47,416 nucleotides of DNA from an uncultured Clostridia bacterium (GTDB taxonomy: Bacteria > Bacillota > Clostridia > Christensenellales > Borkfalkiaceae). Below the pieces are notes generated by a model. The model did no database searches and was not told the origin of the DNA. It saw only the letters and a program-made list of their open reading frames with translations. The translations under genes and the position numbers were made by a program. Shown piece by piece: positions 23,160-36,834 of the stretch. Location of the stretch: contig CANRNP010000008.1 in the NCBI GenBank assembly GCA_947632015.1, positions 1-47,416 of the forward strand. The letters are read 5' to 3'. Each line of letters starts with the position of its first letter. The first letter of the stretch is position 1.

Positions 23160-23217
23160 CTCTTTTTTTCTCCTTCTTTAAGCTCTTTCGGGGTCGGCTC
23201 TGCCGCACCGCAACGTA

Positions 23218-23247
23218 ATTATATCGCGGGAGGAAGGGAGCTGTCAA
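23218..23247 (-). promoter_or_regulatory. Promoter of the alcohol dehydrogenase gene
   Basis: Minus strand TTGACA (23247-23242) and TATAAT (23223-23218) with an 18-base spacer. It diverges from the hydrolase promoter about 90 bases away. Confidence 0.8.
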
Positions 23248-23338
23248 ACACTTTTTTTGCGTTTCGGGGGCGTTCTTTGAGGAAAAAGAGCGGTAGCGGC
23301 GAAAAAAAGTTTCTTTTCGGGCAAGGGGAAAAAATCGG

Positions 23339-23367
23339 TTGCCACGCAAACGCATTTGTGCTATAAT
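23339..23367 (+). promoter_or_regulatory. Promoter of the hydrolase-DUF3737 operon
   Basis: TTGCCA (23339-23344) and TATAAT (23362-23367) are 17 bases apart. The start codon follows after about 41 bases, with AAGGAGG in between. Confidence 0.8.
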
Positions 23368-23408
23368 CGCGGAAAAAGGCGCGAGCCTTTCCATAAGGAG
23401 GTTTTTCG

Positions 23409-24368
23409 ATGAATTTGGGAACAACGTGGGATAAGACGTTCGAAAAGAGCGACAAAGTGCTTCACGAGAAGGTGACTTTCCGCAACCGTTACGGAATCAC
23501 CCTCGCCGCAGACCTGTACGCGCCGAAAAACGGGGCGGGAAAACTCCCCGCCGTTGCGGTGTGCGGTCCCTTCGGTGCGGTGAAAGAGCAGGCTTCGGGG
23601 CTGTATGCCCAGACCCTCGCCGAGCGCGGCTTTCTCACCATCGCCTTCGACCCCTCCTTTACGGGCGAGAGCGGCGGGGAGCCCCGCAACGTGGCTTCTC
23701 CCGACATCAACACCGAGGATTTTTGCGCCGCGGTAGACTATCTCTCCTGCCATGCACAAGTCGACGCGGAAAAGATCGGCATTCTCGGCATCTGCGGCTG
23801 GGGCGGAATGGCGCTCAATGCCGCCGCCGTCGATACCCGCATAAAGGCGACCGTCGCCTCCACGATGTACGACATGACGCGGGTGACCGCCTACGGCTAT
23901 TTCGACAGCCTCGACGAAAACGGCAGATATGAAATGAAGCGCTCGCTCAACGCGCAACGGACGGAAGATTACAAGCGGGGCGTCTATGCGCGGGCGGGCG
24001 GCGTCGTAGACCCGCTTCCCGACGATGCGCCCTTCTTCGTGAAGGATTATTACGACTATTACAAGACGAAGCGCGGCTATCACGTCCGCTCCCTCAACTC
24101 CAACGAGGGCTGGAACACGACCTCCTCCCTCTCCTTCCTCAACATGCCCATCCTGCAATTTTCGCAGGAGATCCGCAGCGCCGTCCTCCTCATCCACGGC
24201 GACAAAGCGCATTCCTGCTATTTCTCGCGGGACGCATTCAAAAAATTAAAGGGAGACAACAAGGAGCTTCTGCTCATCGAGGGCGCCGTGCACACCGATC
24301 TTTACGACAGGACGGATATTATCCCCTTCGGCAAGATCGAGGATTTTTATCGGACGTATCTCAAATAA
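23409..24368 (+). CDS. Alpha/beta hydrolase (dienelactone hydrolase-like superfamily)
   Basis: A 319-residue cytoplasmic alpha/beta hydrolase of the group often annotated as YcjY-like or dienelactone hydrolase family. It has VTFRNRYGITLAADLYAPK at the N-terminus, the oxyanion-side segment AVCGPFGAVKEQ, and GILGICGWGGMALNAAA as the nucleophile elbow, where the nucleophile appears to be Cys rather than Ser. AVLLIHGDKAHSCYFS carries the acid region and EGAVHTDLYDR the catalytic His. AAGGAGG stands ahead of the ATG. It shares a promoter with a DUF3737 gene 17 bases downstream. The natural substrate is unknown; esterase or deacylase activity on a small molecule is the family expectation. Confidence 0.85.
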   Translation: MNLGTTWDKTFEKSDKVLHEKVTFRNRYGITLAADLYAPKNGAGKLPAVAVCGPFGAVKEQASGLYAQTLAERGFLTIAFDPSFTGESGGEPRNVASPDINTEDFCAAVDYLSCHAQVDAEKIGILGICGWGGMALNAAAVDTRIKATVASTMYDMTRVTAYGYFDSLDENGRYEMKRSLNAQRTEDYKRGVYARAGGVVDPLPDDAPFFVKDYYDYYKTKRGYHVRSLNSNEGWNTTSSLSFLNMPILQFSQEIRSAVLLIHGDKAHSCYFSRDAFKKLKGDNKELLLIEGAVHTDLYDRTDIIPFGKIEDFYRTYLK

Positions 24369-24385
24369 CGGAGCCTGAAAGACGC

Positions 24386-25237
24386 ATGAACATCATACGA
24401 AACAAAAATTTCGACGAAGAGAGGGCGCTCTACCGCCTTCAGGACGCGCTCGTCGAAAATTGCCGCTTTGCGGGCGAGGCGGACGGCGAATCCTTTCTCA
24501 AAGAGAGCGACCGCATCACCGTAAAGGACTGCTATATGGATCTCCGCTATCCGATGTGGCATACGACCGATCTCACCCTGCTCGGCTGTGAGATGACGGA
24601 GCGGTGCCGCGCCGCGCTCTGGTATGTCCGCAACGCGCGCATCGAGAACTGCCGTTTCGGCGGCATCAAGGCTCTGCGCGAATGCGAAAATATCCTGTTG
24701 AAGGAATGCGCCGCGGTCTCGCCGGAATTCGGATGGCGTTGCAGGCGGCTCCGCGTGGAGGGCGGGAAGATCGAGGCGGAATACGCCTTCTTCGAATGCG
24801 AAGATCTCACGGCGGAAGGGCTTACCCTCTGCGGGAAATATTCCTTTCAATACACGAAAAACGCCCTCGTTACAAATTGCAACTGCAAGACGAAGGACGC
24901 TTTCTGGCACGCCGAAAACGTGACGGTGAAAGACTGCGTCCTCGACGGGGAGTATATCGGCTGGTATTCGAAGGGGCTCACCCTCATAAACTGCCGCATC
25001 AAGGGCACCCAGCCGTTCTGCTATGCAAACGGCCTCACCCTCGTCGGCTGTACGATGGAGGACTGCGATCTCGCCTTCGAATACAGCGACGTGCAAGCCG
25101 ACATCCGCGGCGGGATCGTCTCCGTGAAAAATCCCCTGCGGGGGAAGATCGAGGCGGATGAGATCGGGGAGATCATTCTTTCAAACAGCAAATACGAAAC
25201 GAACGCCGAGATCGTGAGGCGGAAAGAACAAACATAG
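24386..25237 (+). CDS. DUF3737 right-handed beta-helix protein
   Basis: A 283-residue protein made of about twelve short coils, each with a pattern like NARIENCRFGG, NVTVKDCVLDG or GLTLINCRIKG. Regular spacing of the N/G-L-T-V-x-x-C repeats predicts a right-handed beta-helix, and the whole matches the DUF3737 family of Firmicutes and Bacteroidetes. No signal peptide or membrane helix is present. Its function is not known. The many Cys residues stack in the coil turns and may form an inner ladder. It is the second gene of the hydrolase operon and ends in front of a bidirectional terminator. The ribosome binding site is weak (GGAG twelve bases upstream). Confidence 0.85.
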   Translation: MNIIRNKNFDEERALYRLQDALVENCRFAGEADGESFLKESDRITVKDCYMDLRYPMWHTTDLTLLGCEMTERCRAALWYVRNARIENCRFGGIKALRECENILLKECAAVSPEFGWRCRRLRVEGGKIEAEYAFFECEDLTAEGLTLCGKYSFQYTKNALVTNCNCKTKDAFWHAENVTVKDCVLDGEYIGWYSKGLTLINCRIKGTQPFCYANGLTLVGCTMEDCDLAFEYSDVQADIRGGIVSVKNPLRGKIEADEIGEIILSNSKYETNAEIVRRKEQT

Positions 25238-25250
25238 AAACATATACACG

Positions 25251-25279
25251 GAAGGGCGGAGATACCGCCCTTCTTTTTT
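25251..25279. terminator. Shared bidirectional terminator
   Basis: GAAGGGCGG (25251-25259) pairs with CCGCCCTTC (25265-25273), followed by six T. It lies between the converging DUF3737 and GH31 genes and can end both transcripts. Confidence 0.9.
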
Positions 25280-25284
25280 ACCCG

Positions 25285-27783
25285 CTACTTCAAAAAAAAC
25301 AAGATCTCCTGCTCCTCGTCCGTCCGCGCGGAAAAGCGCACGGAGAGCACGGCGCCGTCGGGAGAAAAAGCCGTTTCCCCGAAGGGAACGGTATCCGCTT
25401 TGCCGAAAATGCGAAACGGGATCTCTTTACCGTTGAGGCAGACCCTTCCGACCCGTTCTGCCGCCCCGATCAGGTGGTATTTGAGCAGGATCTCGCGCCG
25501 TTCGGTCCCCGCATATCCCCCCTCCGCGGCATGCAACCGCACCGAAAACGCCCGCTTTGCGGGGAGATATTCCGCCGTGTAAGCGCTCTTGCAAAAGACG
25601 CCTTTTTTGTATGCCGTCGTCTCGCCGTCGTCCTCGTAGAGGAAGCCCTCGTCGCTCGCGTCCTGATCGGGATAGAAATCGAGGATGAGCTTCTCGCGGC
25701 TTTGCTCCGCGGTGTTTTGGGCGTTCTCCGCAAGCGGGATAAGAGCGCCGAGGCGGACGAAGAGCGGCATCGACCTTAGACCGCACTTTTTGACGAGGGT
25801 GCGCCTGCCCGGATAGACCTTGCCGTCGAACACGTCCATCCACCGTCCCGCGGGAAGATACACCTCCCTGCTTCCCTCCTCCGCCGTCTCCGCTTCGAAC
25901 AGCCCCAGATACGCCTCTCCTTCCGCCTGAAAATATTCGATCTCCACCGCATATTCCTCGCCCGCTTTCAGATCGATGAGCGGGGTGAGGGTCGCGGCGT
26001 GGGTCATTTCGTCTCTCATCACGCACACGCCGTTGATATACACCGTCGCGCCGTCGTCGTTTTTGATCAGCAGGCGCTTGGGGCGGTCCGTTACGATTTT
26101 TGTGCGGACGGTAGCGGAAAAATAGTACGCGGGCACGCCCTCGGCGGGCGGTTCGTGCCGAAGCGACATGGCGAGCGTTTTCCAGACCGCCCTGCCCAGC
26201 GGCTCCCCCTTTCTCTCCGTTCCGCCGAAAAAGACGACTTCGACGGGCGCCGCGTAATCGCCCGCGGCAAGCTGGCGGACGGCGGAGCCGATGACGGGAG
26301 CAATGAGGATGTTCCTGCCCAGGAGATATTCGTCCCGCCGCGCCGAACGCCTGTCTTTGGGGTATTCGAGGGCGAGCGAACGGAAGATCGGCATGCCCGT
26401 AAGGTAGGCTTCGTAGGCGTTCGCATAGAGATAGGGAAGCAAGCGGTAGCGGAGAAGGAGATACTCGCGCACGATCGCGAGCGTTTCCCCGTCGTAGAGC
26501 CACGGCTCGCGGGTACGTTTTACGGTTTTGGTGCAATGGGGGCGGAAAATGGGCGAAAGAGCGCCGTATTGCATCCAGCGGATGAACTGCTCTTTATCGG
26601 GGTTGCCCGTGTGCCCGCCGCAATCGGAGCTCATATAGGGGAAACAGTTCTCCGAACAGCGGACGAGGTTCTCCACTTCCTGCGCGAGGTCGGAGGAAGA
26701 GCTCCCGATGTCCCCCGTCCATTGCACGCCGTAGCGGTGGGAAGCGCTGTCGCGGAATCCGACATACTCCCCGTTGGTAATTTCGACGACGTTCCCCATG
26801 ATCACGGGGCGGCGGTAATTGCCTTCGCCCGCGGCGCTTTGGAAAAAGCGCTTCGTGACGTCGTGATAGAGGTAGAGCCCGAAGGTTTCGGGGCAGACGG
26901 AGGCGGTCGGCGAAAGAAGCCGCGTGACCCAGTTTCGGTCGTACCACCAGATATCCAGACCGAGCGCCATGAGCGCTTTTAAGTTCCGCTCGCGGTAGGC
27001 GATCTCGCGCGGATCGAATACCTGTGCGCCGCAAACGGGTTCAGGATGGTCGTTGAACGCGATCTCCACGTTGCGGCTGTGGGCAAAGTCGAAGAAGCGT
27101 TTCAGGTCCGGGAAGAGCCTGCGGTTGACCTCGTATCCCCAGCCGCCCTCGGAAAGGCGCCAGTCGGTGTCGATCACCATGACGTCGAGCGGCACGCCGT
27201 ACTTCTTGTAATCTTCGATGAGCTTTTTCGCCTCTTCTTCGGTATAGGCGTAATATTTGGAATTCCAGCTCCCGAAGGTAGAGCGGCGGACGAGCTCGCA
27301 CCTGCCCGTGAGCGCCACATAGAGGCTGCGGAGCTTCTTTGCGTCGCCGCGGGCGAAGAGAAGATAGATATCCTCGGCGTTCTCCTGCACGCAGAATTCC
27401 CCGCTGCGGGAGGCGGAATAGCCGCCCTGCGGAAGGAGGATGCGGGGGGAATCGGCGAGCGCGAACACTTCGGGCGTTTTGGCGGGAGGCGGGAGTTCGC
27501 CGCTGTTTTTTATCCTGCGGTAGCGGTAGACCGTTTTCCCGCCCCTTTTGAGGCACAGACCCGAAAGGGTGTCTCCCGTGGGCAGATACAGCTCGTATCC
27601 GCAAAAGCGCAAGAGATTGCCTTCCACCGAATATGCGGGAGGATCGCCCGCGAGCTCGCCGCGGGAAGGAATAAAAAAGGTGTCCCCGTCGAAGAACTCG
27701 CCCCGTTCGCCCCGCTCGACGCGGACAGCGTCCCCACCCAAAAAACTCACTCTGACGTTGCGAAAAACGATCTTTTCCTGCAT
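25285..27783 (-). CDS. Glycoside hydrolase family 31 with inserted PA14-like domain
   Basis: An 832-residue cytoplasmic alpha-glycosidase. The N-terminal galactose-mutarotase-like sandwich (1-165) is followed by the barrel with VPLDVMVIDTDWR, GLDIWWYDRNW (probable nucleophile Asp near 281), VQWTGDIGSSSSDL (acid/base Asp near 354) and MSSDCGGHTG. The nucleophile context differs from the common WxDMNE. Residues 550-645 (YYFSATVRTKIVTDRP..., DGATVYINGV) resemble a PA14 domain, placed between the barrel and the C-terminal sandwich. No signal peptide was seen. The substrate could be alpha-glucoside, alpha-xyloside or alpha-galactoside; GH31 includes all three. It is transcribed alone behind a long leader with a terminator-like hairpin. 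The start has AGGAG six bases upstream. Confidence 0.9.
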   Translation of the reverse strand: MQEKIVFRNVRVSFLGGDAVRVERGERGEFFDGDTFFIPSRGELAGDPPAYSVEGNLLRFCGYELYLPTGDTLSGLCLKRGGKTVYRYRRIKNSGELPPPAKTPEVFALADSPRILLPQGGYSASRSGEFCVQENAEDIYLLFARGDAKKLRSLYVALTGRCELVRRSTFGSWNSKYYAYTEEEAKKLIEDYKKYGVPLDVMVIDTDWRLSEGGWGYEVNRRLFPDLKRFFDFAHSRNVEIAFNDHPEPVCGAQVFDPREIAYRERNLKALMALGLDIWWYDRNWVTRLLSPTASVCPETFGLYLYHDVTKRFFQSAAGEGNYRRPVIMGNVVEITNGEYVGFRDSASHRYGVQWTGDIGSSSSDLAQEVENLVRCSENCFPYMSSDCGGHTGNPDKEQFIRWMQYGALSPIFRPHCTKTVKRTREPWLYDGETLAIVREYLLLRYRLLPYLYANAYEAYLTGMPIFRSLALEYPKDRRSARRDEYLLGRNILIAPVIGSAVRQLAAGDYAAPVEVVFFGGTERKGEPLGRAVWKTLAMSLRHEPPAEGVPAYYFSATVRTKIVTDRPKRLLIKNDDGATVYINGVCVMRDEMTHAATLTPLIDLKAGEEYAVEIEYFQAEGEAYLGLFEAETAEEGSREVYLPAGRWMDVFDGKVYPGRRTLVKKCGLRSMPLFVRLGALIPLAENAQNTAEQSREKLILDFYPDQDASDEGFLYEDDGETTAYKKGVFCKSAYTAEYLPAKRAFSVRLHAAEGGYAGTERREILLKYHLIGAAERVGRVCLNGKEIPFRIFGKADTVPFGETAFSPDGAVLSVRFSARTDEEQEILFFLK

Positions 27784-27795
27784 GTTTCTCCTCTT

Positions 27796-27814
27796 GCCCC
27801 GCCAAAGACGGGGC
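27796..27814 (-). promoter_or_regulatory. Leader hairpin next to the GH31 ribosome binding site
   Basis: GCCCCG (27796-27801) and CGGGGC (27809-27814) pair around a seven-base loop, four bases before the AGGAG of GH31. It could affect translation start or take part in switching with the upstream terminator hairpin. Confidence 0.45.
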
Positions 27815-27835
27815 GCAAACGTAATTTTATGCGAA

Positions 27836-27862
27836 GAAAAAAGCGGAGCAACCGTTCCGCTT
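27836..27862 (-). terminator. Terminator-like hairpin inside the GH31 leader
   Basis: On the minus strand AAGCGGA pairs with TCCGCTT around an eight-base loop and is followed by TTTTTTC. No minus-strand gene lies upstream for it to end, since its own promoter is at 27964-27992. It is therefore a candidate attenuator. No known riboswitch consensus was recognised. Confidence 0.6.
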
Positions 27863-27943
27863 CTCTCTCAGTTTTTCGCTATATTTTCAAGCTGAGCGGC
27901 GTGATCGCCACATTTCCTTTCCCCCGACGGCGGAAAATTACAA

Positions 27944-27967
27944 ACTATATTACTGCATACTATATTA
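27944..27967. repeat. Direct repeats overlapping the GH31 -10 box
   Basis: ACTATATTA occurs at 27944-27952 and again at 27959-27967, 15 bases apart. The second copy overlaps the -10 box. This spacing would place two bound proteins about one and a half turns apart, and makes the pair a candidate operator. Confidence 0.45.
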
Positions 27968-27992
27968 TAAGTAGTCTCACCCATATTGTCAA
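27964..27992 (-). promoter_or_regulatory. Consensus promoter of GH31
   Basis: Minus strand TTGACA (27992-27987) and TATAAT (27969-27964), 17-base spacer: a perfect match. The leader to the ATG is about 170 bases. The whole interval 27784-28160 otherwise holds only the divergent promoter of the next operon. Confidence 0.88.
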
Positions 27993-28107
27993 CTTAATTC
28001 GGCAAAAATATGGGAGGAAAATCGGGTAAAAAACGGCAAAGTCCGACACGGGAGCGATTCGAATTGCGGGAAAATGCGGGAAATGCGGGGGAAAACCGCG
28101 CTTCGGG

Positions 28108-28136
28108 TTGCATTTCCCGAAGGGATATGCTATAAT
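28108..28136 (+). promoter_or_regulatory. Promoter of the amidohydrolase/ATP-grasp operon
   Basis: TTGCAT (28108-28113) and TATAAT (28131-28136) are 17 bases apart. The leader is only about 18 bases and carries GGCGGTGAG before the ATG. Confidence 0.8.
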
Positions 28137-28160
28137 TTTTTGCAGATAAGGCGGTGAGAA

Positions 28161-28799
28161 ATGCTGGACCCTGAAATTGCAAGGCAGTATGAACAATATT
28201 TTTCCGTAGAGCGCGACCGTTCCTTCGAACTCCTCGAAGGCGCGCGGAAGATCATGCTCTCCGCGCCGCACAGCGTTGCGCAGACGCGGGACGGAAAACT
28301 CAAAACGGCGGAGCCGCAGACGGGCATGCTCGTAAAACTTCTGCACGACGAGCTCGCCTGCCCCGCGATCTACAAGACGAAAAATTGCGGCGACGACGCG
28401 AATTTCGACGAGGAGAGCGCCTATAAACGGGCGTTGCAACGCTATATCCGCACCCACGGCGTCCGCTTTTTGATCGATCTCCACCAGCTGTCGCCCGACC
28501 GCGAAGTGCAGATCGACATCGGCACGGGAAAAAGCAAAAATCTCGCGGGACAGGACTGCGTCAACGCGGCGTTGAAGGCGTTCACGCGCAGGAATCTCGG
28601 CGTCGTCCAGCTCGGAAAACCCTTCGACGCGGCGGAACCTTACACCATTTCCTCCTTTATCGCCGCCACTTGCAAGATCCCCTGCGTGCAGATCGAGATC
28701 AATTCCGCCCTCGTCTGCGAAGGATACGAAAATTATCGGCTCGGCGACGTTTACGAAGCGCTCAAAGAATTTATTCTGGCGGTAGAGGCGATCGGATGA
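28161..28799 (+). CDS. N-formylglutamate amidohydrolase-like protein
   Basis: A 212-residue protein of the N-formylglutamate amidohydrolase (FGase) fold, a zinc hydrolase related to carboxypeptidase-like amidases. Visible family features are MLSAPHSVAQTRDG (the PHS motif), GVRFLIDLHQLSP with the metal-binding Asp-Leu-His, and PCVQIEINSALV near the C-terminus. No signal peptide was found. It is the first gene of a four-gene operon and overlaps the next start by ATGA. No histidine-degradation (hut) gene is nearby, so a role in histidine breakdown is unlikely. Paired with two ATP-grasp ligases, it may cut an amide or acyl bond that the ligases form; this is inference. Confidence 0.8.
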   Translation: MLDPEIARQYEQYFSVERDRSFELLEGARKIMLSAPHSVAQTRDGKLKTAEPQTGMLVKLLHDELACPAIYKTKNCGDDANFDEESAYKRALQRYIRTHGVRFLIDLHQLSPDREVQIDIGTGKSKNLAGQDCVNAALKAFTRRNLGVVQLGKPFDAAEPYTISSFIAATCKIPCVQIEINSALVCEGYENYRLGDVYEALKEFILAVEAIG

Positions 28800-30118
28800 A
28801 AGACAAACAGGCAAAAATCGGTTACGACGGAGAGGAACTCTTCGTACGGTGCAAACGGAAGGTCTACCGCGGTCTTTTCGCCGATCCCGTCCGCGTGGTC
28901 TGCGTGAGCTGCCGCTTCGTCGACCGCTCTCTCTCGTGCGTCTGCGTTTCGCACGAGCTTTTCCGCACGCGGAAAGAGGAAAAACTCGTTCTCGTCAACG
29001 CGGAGACGGGAAATTTCATCAACGTGACCCTTCTTCCGCAGGACGGGCTCGGTGAAAACGAGATCCGCATCACGGGGCACGTCGCGGAGCAGCTTCTCGC
29101 TGAGGAGAACGCCGAGCTCCTCCTCTGCCGCTACAAAAAGATCTCGTTCGGTCGCGTTCTCACCCAAAAGATCGAACATATCCGTGAAAACGACGTCGTT
29201 CTCTCCGAGGAAGATTACCGCGCGTTCGGGCTCGACGCCCTCGGCTCGTTCTGCGATCTGTTCGAATTTTACAATACCGTTACCAAAGACAGCGTCATCG
29301 TAAAGAGCAGTCATATCTATACCGACGCCGCCCTGCCGCGCGGTTCCATCCGTCTGAACCGAAAACAGCGCTTCTTCCTCGGCATGGAATTGCCCCTCTA
29401 CCTCTCCCCCGTCCAGCGGGAGATCCTCGGCGAGCGGGCAAGCGCGGAGGAGCAGAAACTTCTCGGCGAGCTCTACGGAAAAGACCATACCCTCTTGCGG
29501 GAGACGACCTACGAACAGCAGGAGCGGGCGAAGAAGATCATCTCCGCGCGGCTCGGATGCGAGATCCGCGTCATTCCCGTGATCGAATCTGTCCTGAGCC
29601 CCGAACGGAAGAGCCTTTTGCACTGCATCACCGATTTTTACGTCGGCAAGAGCACCGTTTCGCTCATCTGCCGCCGTCCCTACGAAAACGACGAGGGGCT
29701 GAACGTGGTGCGGCTCACAAAGTCGAACATGAAACTGCTCGGCATCGAAGAGATGGACAAGGTCTACCTCAAATACAAAAAAAAGCAGGTCGCCTGCCGC
29801 GTGCTCGAACTCGATAACGAAAAAGAGTTCTTCCGCACCAACCTTCCCGCGCCGACCGAGCTTTCCATCGGCATTCCCAGCCATATCCGCAAAAAACTCG
29901 GCATCACCGCGCTCGACGTCACGGTAAAAGTGGACCGCGATACCGCCTTCATCCTCAAACGGAGCATGAACGAGCAGATCGTGCCCATTCTTTTGACCCT
30001 CTTTTCGACGAGTTTGTTCAGCCGCCTCTCGACGGTCGCGGCGATCGTCATCACCGTGCTCGCCCTCCCTGTGGTGCTCTACCTCAACCTTTCGACGAAG
30101 CGGAACATGCGGGCGTAG
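28796..30118 (+). CDS. Double-psi-barrel-like protein with C-terminal membrane hairpin
   Basis: A 440-residue protein of no named family. Residues 320-400 (VRLTKSNMKLLGIEEMDKVYL... LSIGIPSHIRKKLGITALDVTVKV) have the two-half pattern of a Cdc48-N/AbrB-like double-psi beta-barrel: polar strand, LGI, Asp-Val, arginine, then a second copy. Earlier segments near 60-110 and 130-190 (VVLSEEDYRAFGLDALG, SIRLNRKQRFFLGMELPLYLS) look like further copies. Two hydrophobic stretches at the C-terminus (IVPILLTLFSTSLFS and TVAAIVITVLALPVVLYLNL) suggest a tail anchor that leaves the barrels in the cytoplasm. The ATG at 28796 overlaps the amidohydrolase stop. I infer a membrane scaffold or substrate-binding partner for the neighbouring enzymes. 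Confidence 0.72.
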   Translation: MKDKQAKIGYDGEELFVRCKRKVYRGLFADPVRVVCVSCRFVDRSLSCVCVSHELFRTRKEEKLVLVNAETGNFINVTLLPQDGLGENEIRITGHVAEQLLAEENAELLLCRYKKISFGRVLTQKIEHIRENDVVLSEEDYRAFGLDALGSFCDLFEFYNTVTKDSVIVKSSHIYTDAALPRGSIRLNRKQRFFLGMELPLYLSPVQREILGERASAEEQKLLGELYGKDHTLLRETTYEQQERAKKIISARLGCEIRVIPVIESVLSPERKSLLHCITDFYVGKSTVSLICRRPYENDEGLNVVRLTKSNMKLLGIEEMDKVYLKYKKKQVACRVLELDNEKEFFRTNLPAPTELSIGIPSHIRKKLGITALDVTVKVDRDTAFILKRSMNEQIVPILLTLFSTSLFSRLSTVAAIVITVLALPVVLYLNLSTKRNMRA

Positions 30119-30128
30119 GAGGCGGAAC

Positions 30129-30995
30129 ATGACGGGTTGGTTGATCGTAAACGGATTTCTCGATTCCGCAAAATTCGACGGGATCTACGCAATGCTCCTC
30201 CGCGCCGCGCAGAAGCGGCCGCTCCGCCTCGAACTGAAAACGTCCGCCTCCCTGATCTGCGAGTCGGCGTCCCGTTTTTCCGAATACGGGCTGCCCGATT
30301 TCGTCCTCTTCTGGGATAAAGACATCTATCTCGCACGCAGGCTCGAAGAAGCGGGCGTGCCCGTATTCAACTCCGCCCGCGCGGTGGAGATCTGCGACAA
30401 CAAAATTTTGACGACCCTCTCCGCGCAGGGGAAGGTCCGCATCCCCCGCACCGTCATCGCCCCCAAGACGTTCGAGGGCGTCAACTACCGAAAGAAAGAT
30501 TTTTTGCAATACGTCTATGATAAATTCGGCTTTCCGTTCGTCCTCAAAGAGGCGTACGGCTCCTTCGGCAAGCAAGTCTATCTCGTCGGCTCCCCCGCGC
30601 AGGCAGAGGCGCTTTTAGATCGGCTCGGCTATAAAGAATTCCTCATGCAGGAATTCGTCTCATCGAGCCGCGGGAAGGATATACGGATCAACGTCGTGGG
30701 CGACGAAGCCGTCTCCTCCATGCTCCGCTATAATCCGAACGATTTCCGCTCGAACGTTACGGGGGGCGGGCAGACAATCCCCCATACGGCGACGGAGGAA
30801 GAGAAAAAACTCGCGCTCGACGCCTGCCGCGCGGTCGGTGCGGACTTTGCGGGGGTGGACGTTCTCCTCGGTCCCGAAGGCGAGCCTATCCTCTGCGAGA
30901 TCAATTCCAATCCCCATTTCGAGAGCAGTTATCTGTGCAACGGGATCGACATGAGCGGCTATATCCTCGACTATATTTTAAGGAAACTACGATGA
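30129..30995 (+). CDS. RimK-type ATP-grasp ligase
   Basis: A 288-residue ATP-grasp enzyme of the RimK/glutathione-synthetase-like group, which activates a carboxylate as acyl-phosphate and joins it to an amine. The ATP-binding segments are FPFVLKEAYGSFGKQVYLV (Lys and the glycine-rich loop), MQEFVSSSRGKDIRINVVGD, and the metal-binding end GVDVLLGPEGEPILCEINSN, with Glu and Asn in place. NPNDFRSNVTGGG is the RimK-type substrate-side motif. The N-terminal 100 residues are the usual pre-ATP-grasp domain. AGGAGG lies six bases before the ATG, ten bases after the preceding gene. The acceptor is unknown; glutamate ligation to a protein or small molecule is the nearest characterised activity. Confidence 0.9.
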   Translation: MTGWLIVNGFLDSAKFDGIYAMLLRAAQKRPLRLELKTSASLICESASRFSEYGLPDFVLFWDKDIYLARRLEEAGVPVFNSARAVEICDNKILTTLSAQGKVRIPRTVIAPKTFEGVNYRKKDFLQYVYDKFGFPFVLKEAYGSFGKQVYLVGSPAQAEALLDRLGYKEFLMQEFVSSSRGKDIRINVVGDEAVSSMLRYNPNDFRSNVTGGGQTIPHTATEEEKKLALDACRAVGADFAGVDVLLGPEGEPILCEINSNPHFESSYLCNGIDMSGYILDYILRKLR

Positions 30996-31789
30996 ACGGA
31001 ATTTTGATCTATGACGAATTCGGGGCGCGACGGAACGCCTGGTTTATCGACCGAATGACGACCTGTGCCCGCAAAAACGGGATCTCCCTCCTTCTGCAAA
31101 AGACCCCTCTTCCCCCGTCCGCGCTCTCTCCCCTGCCCGATTTCGCCGTGATGCGGACGATCGAACCCGACCTCGGAAAAAGACTGGAAGCGCTGGGCGT
31201 GCGCGTGTTCAACAATGCGGAAACGGAGCGCGTCGCCAACGACAAGTGGGAGACCTATCTCCTCGCCCGAAAACTCTCCCTGCCCGTTATGGAGACTATG
31301 CGGGCGGAGGAGCCCCTTCCCCCCTTTCCGTTCGTGATGAAATCGACGGACGGGCACGGCGGGAGCGAAGTTTTTCTCATCCGAAGCGGCGGCGATCTTA
31401 CCGCCGCGCGGCAGGCGCTGTACAAAAAAAGATATATCGTGCAAACTTTTTGCGACCATCCGGGCGTGGACATGCGGTTGTATATGCTCGGCGGAAAGAT
31501 CTTGGCGGGCGTTCTGCGGGAATCGGAGAGCGACTTCCGCAGCAACTATTCGCTGGGCGGGCACGTGCGGCAGGCCGAGCCGTCGGCGCGCCAGCTTTCG
31601 ATCGCCGAAGCGGTCACGGGGGCGCTCGGAGCCGACTTCGTCGGCGTCGATTTTCTGCTCCACGACGGGGAATGGGTGCTGAACGAGATCGAGGACGTCG
31701 TCGGAACGCGGATGCTCTACAAATGCGCCCCGATCGACGCCGCGGAGCGGTACATGGACTATATTGCGAAGCGGCTCCGCGCAAAATAA
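30992..31789 (+). CDS. Second ATP-grasp ligase (EIED type)
   Basis: A 265-residue ATP-grasp enzyme overlapping the previous gene as ATGA. It shows FPFVMKSTDGHGGSEVFLI, PGVDMRLYMLGGKILAGVLR, ESDFRSNYSLGGHV and the metal end VGVDFLLHDGEWVLNEIED. It is about 20 residues shorter than its neighbour. At the metal site it has Glu-Ile-Glu-Asp where RimK has Glu-Ile-Asn, so the two ligases differ in the catalytic end and probably in acceptor. DVVGTRMLYK after it is typical of uncharacterised Firmicutes ATP-grasp proteins. The pair may be two successive steps or a heterodimer. It ends the operon before a terminator. Confidence 0.86.
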   Translation: MNGILIYDEFGARRNAWFIDRMTTCARKNGISLLLQKTPLPPSALSPLPDFAVMRTIEPDLGKRLEALGVRVFNNAETERVANDKWETYLLARKLSLPVMETMRAEEPLPPFPFVMKSTDGHGGSEVFLIRSGGDLTAARQALYKKRYIVQTFCDHPGVDMRLYMLGGKILAGVLRESESDFRSNYSLGGHVRQAEPSARQLSIAEAVTGALGADFVGVDFLLHDGEWVLNEIEDVVGTRMLYKCAPIDAAERYMDYIAKRLRAK

Positions 31790-31809
31790 GGAATAAAGCA
31801 AAAAAGCAG

Positions 31810-31837
31810 AAAAGCTCCCGCGTTTTCGGGAGCTTTT
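31810..31837. terminator. Bidirectional terminator between ATP-grasp and RyR units
   Basis: AAAAGCTCCCG (31810-31820) pairs with CGGGAGCTTTT (31827-31837) around a six-base loop. It ends the plus-strand operon and, read from the other side with its downstream T run, the minus-strand RyR pair. Confidence 0.85.
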
Positions 31838-31883
31838 CGTCTGTCTCGTTTTCGGGCGCAAGGCAAAGCGCGGGCGCGCGCTA

Positions 31884-32168
31884 TCAGCGCTTTTCGATGC
31901 GGTAGCCGAGTTTTATGAGGAGTTTGAGGGTCTCCAACGACGTCCTGCGGTCGTAATCTTTATCGCCCTCGGTCAGTTCGTCGTAGGGAATGAGCAGAGG
32001 GTGGGTCTTTTTCTCGCGGTCGAGCGTTTCGCCGTACGCCCAACCGTCGTCCAGCTTCCCCTGCGCCCAGACCTCGTGCGTGTTCTCGGCAAGTTTTTCC
32101 GCCAACTCCATGATGTCTTTTCCCACGACAACGTCGCTCGTATCGATCGGATCCGGAATGTAACTCAT
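31884..32168 (-). CDS. Stand-alone RyR-domain protein
   Basis: A 94-residue protein that is almost exactly one ryanodine-receptor (RyR, PF02026) domain. It opens PIDTSDVVV, then LAENTHEVWAQGKLDDGW, YGETLDREKKTHPLLIPY and YDRRTSLETLKLLIKLGY, the order seen in eukaryotic calcium-channel repeats and in bacterial homologues. No signal peptide or membrane helix. AAGGAGA is six bases before the ATG, and the ATG overlaps the stop of the large membrane protein (ATGA), so both are made together. The role of bacterial RyR domains is not established; ligand or partner sensing for the membrane protein is inferred. Confidence 0.88.
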   Translation of the reverse strand: MSYIPDPIDTSDVVVGKDIMELAEKLAENTHEVWAQGKLDDGWAYGETLDREKKTHPLLIPYDELTEGDKDYDRRTSLETLKLLIKLGYRIEKR

Positions 32169-35161
32169 TTTTGTCTCCTTCTCATTTTTCCATATATTTT
32201 CTTACTGCTGTGAACGAGCCGCGGCTCGCCGTCCGCAGTGCTGAGGTAGAGATATTTACGGTCCTGCTCCCTGCCGATAAACCGCGTTCCCCCGTGAGGG
32301 ACCTCGAACAGGAAATATCTGCCGCCGTCGACGGTCACCGAGAGCATCTCCGAACGTTTTTTGCGCGAGAGGACGAGGAGTTCTTTTCCCCTCTGCTTTT
32401 TGCGAGGCTCCGCGTCCGTGCGCAGAAGGAAGAGATCTTCCGTTTCCCCGTGCGTCACGATGATGAGGTCGGGGGTCACTTCTTCCCCCGTTTCCTCGAA
32501 CACAGAGCTCTCCATCGCGCGGCGGATCTGCCCCACCGCTTCCTTGATGTTCTCCTCCTTGACGTCGGCAAAACCGCCCTCTCTGCCGCAGAGCGCATTG
32601 AAGTAACGCTCCAAACGCATTTGCAAGAGTTGCACATAGAGGTTGCGCGTCATATCGATGTCGTACCGCTTGAAGTCGGCATAGCGCTCTTCGCCGCCGT
32701 ACGATTTTCCGATGCAGAGGGTAACGACCAGACTGAGTTTATCGAGCGCGTCCGCTTGGATTTCGGGGAAGAGCCCGCCGAGCCAATCGCTCAGCGGAAG
32801 ATCTTCGCTCTCTTTGCTTCTGAGTAAGGCAATCTCCTTTTGCAGAGCTTTGCACTCCGCCTCCATCAGCGCGCGGATGCCGTCGAATGCTTCGTTCCGC
32901 TCCGCAAGGCAGTCGCCAGACCGTTTCCGCATGCACAGCGCGTCCGCCCGCGTCCGACGGATCGTCCTTACATACTGTAAAATATCCCCCAAGCGGTTGG
33001 GATCGTCCGGATAACGGGCGGTGGCATAGGCGAGGAGAAGCTGCTCCGTGGAGCAGTAATCGGGACTGCTCTCAAAGAGGCAGGCGTGGAGCATTCTCTC
33101 GTTGCTTTTGTGCCTTCCCGCGAGAAAGCGGTTTCCTACGTCGAACGCCATTGTCGCAAACTGCTTGGCGGTCGGACAGCGGAAACCCCGCGTCCGCATA
33201 TAGGCGCACCAGCGGTGGTGTTCCAGCCAGTAAAGCTGGTCCTTGCAGCTCTTCGTGTTGTCCTTTCCCATGATCTTGAAAAAGTATTCCGACTGCGTCT
33301 TTTCCCCTTGGTTGGGATCGAGGCAGAAGAGCTTATACGGGAAGTGCAGGGCGACCGCGACCGAAGAATCGCGGTTGTACGAGGAGAGGAAGCCTGAGAC
33401 CGTTTGGTTATAGTGGGTGCGCTCCGCCTGCAAGGCGCGGCGTTCGAGCGCGTCCATCCGGATGCTCGAATAGCTGAAACATTCCTTCATCGTGCTGAAC
33501 GGACGGACGATGCACCACGGCGTCCGTTGCAACGCCCCTTTCCCGCGGTCCATCATCTCGTAAAGCCCGTCGTTCTCCACGGCGTAATCGATGATGACGG
33601 GAGAGGGCGATTCAAGGTGGGCGCGGCTGTTGATGAGTTCGCGCTCCGCCCACTGCGCCGCTTGCAAATTCATCTCATCGTCGCCGAAGGCGATGAGGAC
33701 GCGCTGTGCGTTCGCCGCCCCGCTGTTATGGAATTTTTTGCAGAATTCCTCGGTGTTGAAACTCACTTCGTAAAAGGCGATCGTGCCGTACTGCGAGATG
33801 ATGTCGGGAAGCTCGAAAAAGAGCTCCTGCTTAAACCGATTTGCATTCTGCGAGAGCACGATGATCTCTATTTTTTCGCACGAATAGCTCTTTTCGGTGA
33901 GCGCGTTTCCCTGCGCGTCCTTTCGCGGCTCTTTCCGAAGGGAGGAGAGCATCTGCCAGCACCAGATGACCGTTTTAATACATTCTTTGGCGATACGGCC
34001 GCTCCCGAACACGACGAGGCGCAACGACCTGCCGTTTATGTCCTTTGTGATATAGTTCTTCCAGACGCGGTAGAAGGGAGAGAGCTCTTCCATTGTCTGC
34101 TCGTCCTCTTTGAGCCCGCCGAAGATCAGCCGGTCCATGAGTTCGCTGTCGTCCATCATGCGGTAGACGACGTTGCGGAATTCGTTGATCACCTTGACGG
34201 TGTTCTTTTTGCAGAATTTTTTCCGCGCGACATCGATGAGCGCGCCCGCGCCTTCGCTCTGTACAAAGACGAACATCTCCATGTTTTCCGTCTTGAACAG
34301 ATAGGGCGGCTTTTTGGAGAGGCTCATCCAAAGTCCCCTCTTTTCGGTGAGGAGAGAGACGGACTGGGTGAGATTCTCTTCCTCGGAGATGCTCATCATG
34401 AAATAGACGACCTTCTTGTTCTTCGCCGTGCGGACCCAGTGGAAGGGGCGCTCCAAAATGTCGTCTTTCAGACAGATGGCGCCGATGCGTTTTGCGCGCA
34501 TCAAAAGTTCGCTCCGCGTCTCGGACTGGTCGTCGGAATACACGTCGGTAAAGATGATGCAGACGCTTTTCAGCCACGGCTCTTCCTTGAAATCGATATT
34601 ATTCTTGGCAAAATCAAATTTACGGCGGCGGAAGAGCCCCAACTCCCACGAGATACGGGCGATGTCCTCCGCAATGGAAATGGAGCGCTCGTTGAGTTCG
34701 GAAAAGACGAACTTCGTCTTTTTGCGGTTAAACCAAAGGGTGCAGCGCGGCACGACGGCGCAGAGCAGCTGGAAGAGGAAGAATCCTCCCGCCATCGGCA
34801 CGATGACAGTGTACGCGCAGGAGAGGATATAAAAGAAGATCACCCCGCCGAGCGGATAGGCGGCGGCGCCGCCCGCGATCATTCCCGTATAGTCGGCGTC
34901 GAGCGTAAAGAACTGGAAGGTGTGGGAAAACACTTCCGCAACTTTTTGGGCGGCGGGAACGTCCTCGTTCTTCCCGATAACGAACCCCACTTCCAGCGCA
35001 ATGACCGACAATATGAGCGCCGCCATAAAAAGATATCCGCGCCGCGCCCGGTATTTGGAATCCCATCGGTACTGATGGAAGAGCGCAAAATAAATTCCGG
35101 CGAAGAAGATCGCGTAGGCGATGCCGAGAAAAAGGTAGGCTGAAACTTGATAGGCAGCCAT
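32165..35161 (-). CDS. Membrane protein with TrkA-N-like and RyR-like domains
   Basis: A 998-residue protein. Three or four membrane helices fill residues 5-140 (AYLFLGIAYAIFFAGIYFAL, YLFMAALILSVIALEVGF, GGVIFFYILSCAYTVIVPMAG). A cytoplasmic part follows with a first Rossmann-like unit (KFVFSELNERSISIAEDIA, near 157) and a TrkA-N/RCK-like NAD-binding unit (LRLVVFGSGRIAKECIKTV, near 384; VLIAFGDDEMNLQAAQWA later). Residues near 640-700 contain YWLEHHRWCAYMRTRGF and RMLHACLFE, an RyR-like segment. The last 200 residues are not recognised. No potassium selectivity filter (TxGYG) was seen, so it is not a plain potassium channel. A regulated conductance or nucleotide/ion sensor is inferred. The start has only a weak GGGGGT ribosome binding site; the promoter is at 35200-35228. 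Confidence 0.8.
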   Translation of the reverse strand: MAAYQVSAYLFLGIAYAIFFAGIYFALFHQYRWDSKYRARRGYLFMAALILSVIALEVGFVIGKNEDVPAAQKVAEVFSHTFQFFTLDADYTGMIAGGAAAYPLGGVIFFYILSCAYTVIVPMAGGFFLFQLLCAVVPRCTLWFNRKKTKFVFSELNERSISIAEDIARISWELGLFRRRKFDFAKNNIDFKEEPWLKSVCIIFTDVYSDDQSETRSELLMRAKRIGAICLKDDILERPFHWVRTAKNKKVVYFMMSISEEENLTQSVSLLTEKRGLWMSLSKKPPYLFKTENMEMFVFVQSEGAGALIDVARKKFCKKNTVKVINEFRNVVYRMMDDSELMDRLIFGGLKEDEQTMEELSPFYRVWKNYITKDINGRSLRLVVFGSGRIAKECIKTVIWCWQMLSSLRKEPRKDAQGNALTEKSYSCEKIEIIVLSQNANRFKQELFFELPDIISQYGTIAFYEVSFNTEEFCKKFHNSGAANAQRVLIAFGDDEMNLQAAQWAERELINSRAHLESPSPVIIDYAVENDGLYEMMDRGKGALQRTPWCIVRPFSTMKECFSYSSIRMDALERRALQAERTHYNQTVSGFLSSYNRDSSVAVALHFPYKLFCLDPNQGEKTQSEYFFKIMGKDNTKSCKDQLYWLEHHRWCAYMRTRGFRCPTAKQFATMAFDVGNRFLAGRHKSNERMLHACLFESSPDYCSTEQLLLAYATARYPDDPNRLGDILQYVRTIRRTRADALCMRKRSGDCLAERNEAFDGIRALMEAECKALQKEIALLRSKESEDLPLSDWLGGLFPEIQADALDKLSLVVTLCIGKSYGGEERYADFKRYDIDMTRNLYVQLLQMRLERYFNALCGREGGFADVKEENIKEAVGQIRRAMESSVFEETGEEVTPDLIIVTHGETEDLFLLRTDAEPRKKQRGKELLVLSRKKRSEMLSVTVDGGRYFLFEVPHGGTRFIGREQDRKYLYLSTADGEPRLVHSSKKIYGKMRRRQK

Positions 35162-35199
35162 GAATGTACCCCCGACGTTCTTTTGTGTTCCCTTTTATC

Positions 35200-35228
35200 A
35201 TCCTACCACGAAACGCGGGAAATGTCAA
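35200..35228 (-). promoter_or_regulatory. Promoter of the TrkA-N/RyR operon
   Basis: Minus strand TTGACA (35228-35223) and TAGGAT (35205-35200), 17 bases apart; the -35 is ideal and the -10 moderate. Confidence 0.72.
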
Positions 35229-35309
35229 GCCTTCTTCAACATCCGCCGCCCTATTCTATGCCGCGGCGGCGGGATTTTTCCCTGCGGCGGAAAAAATTCG
35301 AAAAATCGC

Positions 35310-35338
35310 TTTACATACGCGCGGAAATGGGCTATAAT
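35310..35338 (+). promoter_or_regulatory. Promoter of the VUT transporter operon
   Basis: TTTACA (35310-35315) and TATAAT (35333-35338) are 17 bases apart. The transcript start near 35345 leaves an 84-base leader. Confidence 0.8.
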
Positions 35339-35344
35339 TGCCCG

Positions 35345-35428
35345 TAATGAGATGTTTTCCTTGAAAAACCATCTCCGCCCCCCGCCGCAGCGCGGGTCGA
35401 GGCGCAATAAAAAACAAGGAGTTTTTTT
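35345..35428 (+). promoter_or_regulatory. Structured leader of the VUT gene, possible riboswitch
   Basis: The leader holds a hairpin (GAGATGTTTTC with GAAAAACCATCTC, about 35350-35376), then a GC-rich foldable stretch (CCCGC...GCGGG, CGCC...GGCG), then AATAAAAAACAAGGAG running into the ribosome binding site. An A-rich tail joined to the ribosome site, before a gene of the queuosine-precursor transporter family, recalls translational preQ1 riboswitches, but the spacing does not fit the class I consensus as I fold it. Confidence 0.35.
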
Positions 35429-36193
35429 ATGAAACAAAAGATTTTGGACTTTTTCTCCGAATGCGGCGTTTTGCTCCGCTCCCTCTCCCCGCTCGCTTTT
35501 TCCCTCTTTCTTCTGTCCGTCTTTTCCATGAACCTGCTCGCAAACAAGAGCCTCGATCTGCCCTTCGACTGGCTCGGACTCGACTGCGGAATCATCGTCT
35601 CGTGGGTGGCGTTCCTCTGTATGGACGTGCTCACCAAGCACTACGGCCCGAAAGCGGCGACCCTCGTCTCCCTCATGGCGATCATCATCAATCTGCTTGC
35701 CTGCCTCATCCTCTTTCTCGCGAGCCGTATTCCGGGCGTCTGGGGCGCCTATTTCGACTTCGGCGAACAACCCGTCGTCAATTCCGCCCTCGATTCGACG
35801 TTCGGCGGAACTTGGTATGTGCTCCTCGGAAGTACGGTCGCCTTTATCGCCTCGGCGGTCGTGAATAACTTTTCCAACTGGGGGATCGGCAAGCTCTTCA
35901 AGAAAAACCCCAACGGGTTTCTCGCCTATGCCTGCCGCACCTACCTCTCCACCGCGCTGGGGCAATTCTGCGATAACCTCATCTTCGCCTTCCTCGTGAG
36001 CTTTTTCTTCTTCGGCTGGTCGCCGCTCAAATGCTTCACCTGCGCGGCGACGGGGATGCTCGCGGAGCTTCTCGTCGAAGCGGTCTTTTCCCCGCTCGGC
36101 TATCGGGTGTGCCGAAGCTGGACGCGGCGGAACGTAGGGAAAGAATATCTCGAATATCGGGAAAAACGTTTGAAAAAAGAGGAGACGGTATGA
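35429..36193 (+). CDS. VUT-family transporter (possible queuosine-precursor importer)
   Basis: A 254-residue inner-membrane protein with six or seven helices, of the VUT/YhhQ (DUF165) family, whose studied members import queuosine precursors. Typical signs are ANKSLDLPFDWLGLDCGIIVSW, CMDVLTKHYGPKAATLVS (the conserved D-x-x-T-x-x-Y/H-G segment) and GQFCDNLIFAFLVSFFF. AAGGAG sits ahead of the ATG. The charged C-terminus KEYLEYREKRLKKEE is cytoplasmic. The dehydrogenase gene after it overlaps by ATGA. Substrate could be a queuosine precursor or another nucleobase or vitamin; no queuosine gene is in the window. Confidence 0.85.
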   Translation: MKQKILDFFSECGVLLRSLSPLAFSLFLLSVFSMNLLANKSLDLPFDWLGLDCGIIVSWVAFLCMDVLTKHYGPKAATLVSLMAIIINLLACLILFLASRIPGVWGAYFDFGEQPVVNSALDSTFGGTWYVLLGSTVAFIASAVVNNFSNWGIGKLFKKNPNGFLAYACRTYLSTALGQFCDNLIFAFLVSFFFFGWSPLKCFTCAATGMLAELLVEAVFSPLGYRVCRSWTRRNVGKEYLEYREKRLKKEETV

Positions 36194-36834
36194 AAATTCT
36201 TGTCACGGGCGCAAGCGGCGGGATCGGCAGGGCGATCGCGGACAAGTTCCTTAGGGAGGGGCACGAAGTGTTCGGGATCGACCTTCTTCCCGCGCCCTTT
36301 TCCCGCAAACGCTATACCCATTTCGTCGCCGATATTACCAAAGAACTGCCCGAAATCACGGGGGTGGAGATCCTCGTCAACAACGCGGGCGTGCAAAACA
36401 GCGGAAAGGATATCGACGTCAACTTGAAGGGCACCGTCCGCGTGACGGAAAAATACGGCGTTGCGCCCCCCATCAAGAGCGTTGTGTTCATCGCCTCGGC
36501 GAGCGCGACGACGGGCGCGGAATTCCCGGAATACGCCGCGAGCAAGGGCGGGACGGTCGCCTACATGAAAAACGTCGCCCTGCGCATCGCCCGTTTCGGC
36601 GCGACGGCGAACAGCCTCTCTCCCGGCGGCGTGACGACGGAGCTCAACCGCCATGTGATGGAGAGCGAAGAGATGTGGGGAGAGATCATGGCGCTCACCC
36701 CCTTAAAAAAATGGGCGTCTCCCGAAGAGATCGCCGAATGGACGTACTTCCTCGCCGTGAAAAACCGTTCGATGACGGGGCAGGACCTCATCGTGGACAA
36801 CGGGGAGAGCACCGACGCAAAATTTATTTGGTAA
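36190..36834 (+). CDS. Short-chain dehydrogenase/reductase
   Basis: A 214-residue SDR oxidoreductase. It has the NAD(P)-binding TGASGGIG at residues 6-13, ILVNNAGVQN, and the catalytic YAASKGG with an upstream serine-rich strand (FIASASATTGA). SPGGVTTELNRHV and the C-terminal GQDLIVDNGEST match the FabG-like classical group. At 214 residues it is about 30 short of the usual 245; the segment between the cofactor loop and NNAG is compressed. It overlaps the transporter gene by ATGA. Substrate unknown; a link to the imported compound is possible but untested. Confidence 0.9.
   Translation: MKILVTGASGGIGRAIADKFLREGHEVFGIDLLPAPFSRKRYTHFVADITKELPEITGVEILVNNAGVQNSGKDIDVNLKGTVRVTEKYGVAPPIKSVVFIASASATTGAEFPEYAASKGGTVAYMKNVALRIARFGATANSLSPGGVTTELNRHVMESEEMWGEIMALTPLKKWASPEEIAEWTYFLAVKNRSMTGQDLIVDNGESTDAKFIW

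Follow-up and report, generated by a model that had tools for sequence, protein, structure and literature searches.

On tubulin, ATP-grasp enzymes of the TTLL family act as writers, and CCP enzymes, which have a zinc-carboxypeptidase fold, act as erasers. Here we describe a bacterial locus with a similar pairing, four genes (A to D, positions 28161 to 31789, plus strand) that encode an FGase-like hydrolase, a membrane barrel protein and two ATP-grasp ligases; it lies in a window of 47,416 nucleotides, the whole stretch analysed, from contig CANRNP010000008.1 of an uncultured Clostridia bacterium (family Borkfalkiaceae). The tubulin system differs in being eukaryotic, in its cytoskeletal target, and in having no membrane barrel protein. 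The RimABK system of Pseudomonas likewise encodes a RimK-family ligase together with a hydrolase that undoes its addition, and a natural hydrolase-ligase fusion, RimBK, exists (PMC11957791). RimB, however, is an aspartic protease resembling retropepsin, and the system targets ribosomal protein S6, whereas the locus in the window has an FGase-like hydrolase, two ligases, and a membrane barrel protein. The Rlo operon of Pseudomonas aeruginosa comprises the same three roles, a hydrolase (RloA), a membrane protein (RloB), and a cytosolic ATP-grasp enzyme (RloC), and mutations in RloB and RloC suppress the defects seen in protease mutants (PMC12239564). Unlike the proteins found here, RloA belongs to the retropepsins and is secreted, and RloB, with its seven membrane helices, is an inactive transglutaminase; neither has a match at the locus, and no retropepsin appears among the Pfam and NCBIfam families listed for the four proteins. 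The locus does not belong with RimB-RimK or Rlo, since the folds of the protease and of the membrane protein are different.

Individual genes have closer counterparts. The nearest named families of gene A are N-formylglutamate amidohydrolase (HutG) and the phage poly-gamma-glutamate hydrolases PghP and PghL, but A falls below the Pfam cut-off and has no hut neighbours: as the earlier note on this DNA had stated, no hut family was matched among the eight neighbouring open reading frames (ORFs) scanned (21984 to 36834), four of which lacked any Pfam match. Gene B resembles the N domain of CDC48/p97/VAT but has no ATPase domain match and is anchored by a predicted membrane hairpin. In the literature searched, with subscription papers mostly outside it, we found analogues only among the papers listed, and no paper joining an FGase or a double-psi barrel with ATP-grasp genes.

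The four genes are tightly packed on the plus strand. Gene A (28161 to 28799, 212 amino acids) encodes an FGase-like predicted zinc amidohydrolase; gene B (28796 to 30118, 440 amino acids) encodes N-terminal strand/helix units, a CDC48-type double-psi barrel, and a C-terminal membrane hairpin; gene C (30129 to 30995, 288 amino acids) encodes a RimK-family ATP-grasp ligase with a CEINSNPHF site; and gene D (30992 to 31789, 265 amino acids) encodes a divergent RimK-type ATP-grasp ligase with an NEIEDVVGTRM site. The A/B and C/D joints are ATGA overlaps, and B and C are separated by 10 bases, so that the coordinates, strand, and joints given in the earlier note were right. The listed ORF of gene D opens at a GTG at 30935, but the ATG at 30992 fits both the overlap and the relatives.

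We propose that the four genes encode a system for reversible amide-bond formation on the cytosolic side of the membrane, a reading to which we assign a rough probability of 0.45. At the expense of ATP, C and D would ligate amino acids, glutamate being the likeliest, onto a target that bears a carboxyl group; they may work by turns, or the first residue may come from C and a further one from D. A, as a zinc hydrolase, would strip the added residue. B would hold A at the membrane through its C-terminal hairpin, a step partly shown by genomes in which A and B are a single polypeptide; the CDC48-type barrel of B would bind either the target or the enzymes that B partners. Where C-D genes are not adjacent, some lineages would use a second FolC-type glutamate ligase as the writer. 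The hydrolase is fused to, or travels with, the membrane barrel protein and is teamed with two unrelated ligase folds; the simplest reading is an eraser paired with writers that can be exchanged for one another. For relatives of all three partners, namely the RimK family, FolC, and the FGase/poly-gamma-glutamate hydrolases, the amino acid is usually glutamate (PMC6506827 for part of this), and by analogy it is the most likely one here. The earlier note had offered either modification of a membrane-held target or production of a small peptide; we infer the former, and the latter is neither shown nor excluded.

Conservation of gene neighbourhood is part of the evidence for this proposal. B was searched for in 101 relatives and in 391 genomes of the class, the window's genome being in both sets, as well as in a collection of genome contigs and in 299 genomes from the family of a Lachnospiraceae relative. 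It proved to be rare, found in 3 of the relatives, 5 of the class genomes, 6 loci of the contig collection (two of them, L011 and L012, taken as identical to the G026 and G069 loci), and 2 genomes of the Lachnospiraceae-side family. A search for A in 398 genomes of the phylum gave 17 with a match and added one further B-bearing genome, G807. Every one of the 13 bacterial genomes found to carry B has A next to it or fused with it; C lies beside A-B in 7 and D in 6. The order is A-B-C-D in the window, L010, L013, L014, and L015, A-C-D-B in L016, and A-B-C in L002, giving six genomes with all four genes together, one of them reordered; a contig end cuts D in L015, and adjacency is incomplete there and in L002. 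These counts are samples rather than a census, many relatives being metagenome bins (including all six contig-collection loci); G318 and G441 carry nearly identical copies of B and are to be counted as one lineage, and shared ancestry means that neither the 13 nor the 17 are independent events. Whether the genes stay together in related genomes had been named as a check by the earlier note; the linkage is indeed kept in distant genomes, which bears out a hydrolase, a membrane-anchored barrel protein, and two ligases as one functional unit, although the set is rare even in close relatives. The finding goes beyond chance: between two Lachnospiraceae relatives (L014 and L015), amino-acid change was far below synonymous change in all four genes (pN/pS of 0.16/0.61 for A, 0.16/0.69 for B, 0.06/0.56 for C, and 0.21/0.67 for D, truncated in L015).

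Relatives of gene A connect it to the FGase family: 17 of 22 members match Pfam FGase (PF05013) at E ≤ 0.01, with a best value of 3.4e-11, and the relative in G807 passes the family cut-off with 33.3 bits, so the assignment in the earlier note survives by profile comparison even though the window's own copy is below the cut-off. A poly-gamma-glutamate hydrolase model matched one of the 22 members (E = 0.0045), and a profile search of Protein Data Bank sequences with the A family returned no true relative. In the A-family alignment (A9), 21 of 22 rows retain H37, E/D51, H108, and E179; these are putative metal or catalytic residues, as a zinc hydrolase of the FGase fold would need. The exception is the most divergent relative, L049 (17% identity), in which H37, E51, H108, and E179 are all lost together, as expected if those residues form an active site. 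The structure of PghL, whose structural neighbours after PghP are the hypothetical protein 2odf and the FGase 2q7s, resembles 2q7s and has the zinc ligands His-Glu-His (PMC6506827).

For gene B, a double-psi barrel of the CDC48 N-domain type at residues 286 to 384 (29651 to 29947, plus strand) is well supported by profile comparison and predicted structure. The window's protein matches CDC48_N (PF02359) at E = 8.5e-6 with 26.3 bits, under the gathering cut-off of 35.1, and 11 of 12 B relatives match it at E ≤ 0.01; VIA-align of the B model listed the CDC48-type barrel alone and scarcely covered the N half. There, residues 48 to 194 (28937 to 29377, plus strand) form four strand-helix-strand-strand units in the model's secondary structure, possible further barrels, with an internal repeat (47 to 98 versus 132 to 193, hhalign probability 81%) and no profile similarity to the C-terminal barrel (probabilities 0.5 to 2.9). 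Of the repeated barrel units that had been described from the sequence, the C-terminal one is therefore borne out and those of the N half are only suggested. No AAA+ ATPase domain was found in B by Pfam; a membrane hairpin stands after the barrel instead (residues 383 to 437, 29942 to 30106, plus strand), two helices followed by a basic tail. Hydropathy gives two stretches and the model two helices (383 to 408 and 413 to 437), in agreement with the two membrane stretches noted before. The tail carries the motif S(S/T)KRxMR plus one or two residues in 7 of 12 B rows, and R436 within it is one of only 11 invariant columns in those 12 rows. Under the positive-inside rule, by which the net-positive side of a membrane segment is placed in the cytosol, the tail of those seven rows is predicted to be cytosolic. 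One B relative is archaeal, a plasmid protein of Halobacterium hubeiense (WP_082687272, L059:4611-5693, profile E = 5.9e-27).

Both ligases match Pfam RimK (PF08443) over its cut-off (C, 6.6e-34; D, 1.5e-17) and are the only RimK-domain genes found in the window's genome. C also passes TIGR00768, the RimK-family alpha-L-glutamate ligase model, with 178.4 bits against a cut-off of 143.4, and its nearest solved relatives are RimK/LysX-type enzymes; on the ribosomal S6 ligase model NF007764 it reached 81.3 bits, far below the equivalog cut-off of 331. D scored 92.2 bits on TIGR00768, below that cut-off; LysX and glutathione synthase were also matched weakly. The EIN and EIED metal-site motifs recorded in the earlier note are present in C and D, respectively. 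Of 22 rows of D relatives, 21 have NE(I/L/M)ED and one has SEIED, and because this replaces the E-x-N of C, D appears to be a distinct subfamily with an acidic residue at the expected last metal position. 

The second ligase fold that accompanies A-B is of the FolC type. In three near-related genomes, A and B are fused (669 to 684 amino acids) beside a FolC-like ligase that carries Mur-ligase domains, and in G807, A, B, and FolC are consecutive. Setting G069 apart, five B-bearing genomes have no C-D beside A-B; four of these have an adjoining FolC-type ligase, and in the remaining one, G764, a second FolC is encoded at another place in the genome. The adjoining FolC is in all four cases a second, divergent paralog, scoring 223 to 240 bits compared with 351 to 393 for the stronger copy elsewhere in the genome. 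C and D were sought genome-wide in G318, G373, and G441, which gave a single weak partial match in G373 (E = 7e-4), and D was sought in G807, which gave none at 1e-20. In L017 and L019, a mechanosensitive-channel-like gene, identified by eye, is convergent to the A-B fusion, and in a different family such a gene also stands near lone A (L037 and L040).

The C-D pair, for its part, is found well beyond A-B. D was detected at E ≤ 1e-40 in 17 of 381 genomes of the class, with C adjoining it in all 17, and no description of this recurrent ATP-grasp pair was found in the literature searched; weaker matches in 3 of 299 genomes at E ≤ 1e-20 fit the C model better and were excluded from the count. Within one genus, the gene order at a shared locus is rnhA-A-C-D-B-spoIID in G312 and rnhA-C-D-spoIID in G270 (rnhA and spoIID by eye), and since A and B lie on opposite sides of C-D in the first and are absent from the second, they were gained or lost together. 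In the C tree (26 proteins), the seven A-B-linked proteins fall into one group of nine (100/99), two members of which lack A-B, with three label changes. The D tree (22 proteins) places four of the five A-B-linked rows in one cluster (97/95) and L016 beside its genus mate G270, with two label changes. A single joining with later losses or repeated joining are both possible from these trees. The earlier note's "self-contained" four-gene unit is consequently too narrow a description: A-B and C-D are separable cassettes that occur apart, and A-B occurs also with a FolC paralog.

In G105 and G332 of that genus, an rnhA-like part is fused to C, followed by D. An N-terminal RNase H-like part of C was seen by eye at L079 (G332), L080 (G105), L094:6107-7795, and L095:5978-7765, and in L016 and L083 the RNase H-like gene is separate, just upstream of A or C. 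Other C-D pairs (L089 in G224, L090 in G350, and L091 in G063) are followed by VTC-type polyphosphate polymerase and DUF4956 membrane genes or by a large CotH-like gene (by eye), and in L057 and L093, C-D lies directly 3' of an FtsK/SpoIIIE-like gene (by eye). These neighbours (VTC/DUF4956, CotH-like, ftsK, and RNase H) differ by family and indicate no single pathway.

Several observations weigh against a reversible system at the membrane. Gene A of the window matches PF05013 at E = 1.3e-4 with 22.6 bits, under the gathering cut-off of 28.9, and the EIED motif of D could mean altered chemistry. RimK-type relatives such as LysX and glutathione synthase work on different substrates, and no gene for a target is visible. 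When the 17 D-bearing genomes were searched for A and B, both were found in 2 and neither in 15, so the eraser is not obligatory for C-D; conversely, of the 17 genomes with A in the phylum sample, 15 have it alone, all 15 having been searched for B. The five A-B-linked rows of the D tree do not form one group. G069 has A-B at one place, a lone distant C elsewhere, and no D; D is missing from G026 (71% complete), which has C; and G764, which was not searched for C and D as a whole genome, has A-B without an adjacent ligase. In G807, a short RimK-like ATP-grasp gene is convergent to FolC, so G807 is not a clean case of one ligase fold replacing the other. At the archaeal locus L059, no A, C, or D match was found in the stretch fetched and no A within 10.5 kb. 

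We also weighed what else the genes could be acting on. Of the alternatives, the least improbable, though still unlikely, is that the genes edit, at the membrane, a small molecule or a precursor linked to lipid, for instance a stem peptide of the cell wall or a cofactor. ATP-grasp and Mur/FolC ligases both work on peptidoglycan precursors and cofactors, the FolC-like partner carries the Mur-ligase domains noted above, FGase-fold relatives cleave small glutamyl amides, and B is predicted to be membranous; yet no wall or cofactor gene was shared, by eye, as a neighbour of A-B in the stretches fetched. Folate as a target of C-D was judged from where FolC occurs. FolC was found in none of 19 genomes of the window's genus (E ≤ 1e-25), with or without B, which is unusual in genomes up to 99% complete, and G486 has FolC together with all four genes; folate polyglutamylation by C-D is therefore disfavoured, which counts against the small-molecule alternative in turn, while folate stays possible for the FolC-linked A-B loci. 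For the same reason, C-D as a replacement for FolC, suggested by three genomes with no FolC over the cut-off (G000, G069, and G312), was rejected. Alternatively, B itself could be the substrate of C and D, which would fit its constant company with A in the 13 bacterial genomes and the unusual conservation of its predicted cytosolic tail (the motif in 7 of 12 rows, R436 invariant). The tail motif is lost in L016, however, a locus with both C and D, and differs in the FolC-linked forms, and since C-D occurs without B in 15 of 17 genomes, B cannot be their sole substrate; we regard this explanation as improbable.

A little more doubtful than B as a substrate is a biosynthetic kit for a small peptide metabolite that is exported or recycled, a role in which ATP-grasp pairs serve in other bacteria, graspetides among them (PMC8939145). 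No transporter or tailoring enzyme is kept next to the genes, by eye in the stretches fetched, and the room for a precursor peptide within the unit consists of gaps of at most 10 bases (outside the operon, the ORF list holds those of at least 60 amino acids alone). Neither C nor D reaches the cut-off of a graspetide maturase model: C scored 19.9 bits on TIGR04187 (cut-off 350) and 11.4 bits on TIGR04184 (475), and no match was listed for D. That the four genes are unrelated neighbours is very improbable; each half does occur alone in other genomes, but six genomes with all four genes, the stop/start overlaps, the A-B fusion, and the paired presence or absence of A and B speak to the contrary. 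A mobile-element or defence function was considered and rejected. No PADLOC defence model matched A, B, C, D, or the A-B fusion at E ≤ 0.01, and one scan of viral contigs gave no B relative; among plasmids there was the one distant archaeal relative. D gave 19 matches in phage records, 16 of them to cyanophages or Synechococcus phages at approximately 25% identity over three quarters of D; the other three are "Bacteriophage sp." scaffolds from human faeces (L056, L057, and L058), none of which holds A or B, L058 having a lone C-type gene. By eye, purH and ftsK in L056 and L057 (MT838010 and MT838360) look bacterial, and these two are probably mislabelled bacterial contigs.

If the proposed reversible amide-bond system is correct, it would extend modification by paired ligases and proteases, as in RimBK and Rlo, to a further hydrolase fold, and its membrane adaptor would be a CDC48-type barrel that lacks the ATPase. 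By analogy, it might even be a portable bacterial counterpart of tubulin glutamylation, in which a membrane-proximal protein is reversibly glutamylated and a zinc hydrolase, tied to the membrane by a CDC48-N-type adaptor, serves two unrelated ligase classes, the paired ATP-grasp ligases or the FolC paralog; we consider this specific form unlikely. The natural series of C-D alone, A-B with FolC, and A-B-C-D would then make the writer and eraser roles testable.

The transcription signals around the operon are less clear than its coding sequence. The earlier note had placed the genes behind one promoter and one terminator. A promoter-like TTGCAT-17-TATAAT with TG before the −10 (28108 to 28136, plus strand) is visible by eye and may serve the operon, but it falls below the threshold of a promoter scan that needs four of six positions in the first hexamer. 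A terminator-like hairpin of 12 pairs (31809 to 31838, no strand assigned) lies between D and a convergent RyR-domain gene; the terminator scan flagged it on the minus strand only, and the six terminator-like sites in the region compare with 5.8 in shuffled sequence, not above chance.

The operon stands between a glycoside hydrolase family 31 gene and the RyR-domain gene. In two other genomes, genes for trigger factor, clpP, and clpX (by eye) occur a few kilobases or less from A-B of G764 (L051) and from the lone C of G069 (L050), perhaps by coincidence. In the window, the RyR-domain protein (94 amino acids, PF02026, 3e-34) overlaps a 998-amino-acid protein (together 31884 to 35161, minus strand), an odd pair for a bacterium; the larger partner, with no Pfam match at 0.001, begins with N-terminal hydrophobic stretches seen by eye.

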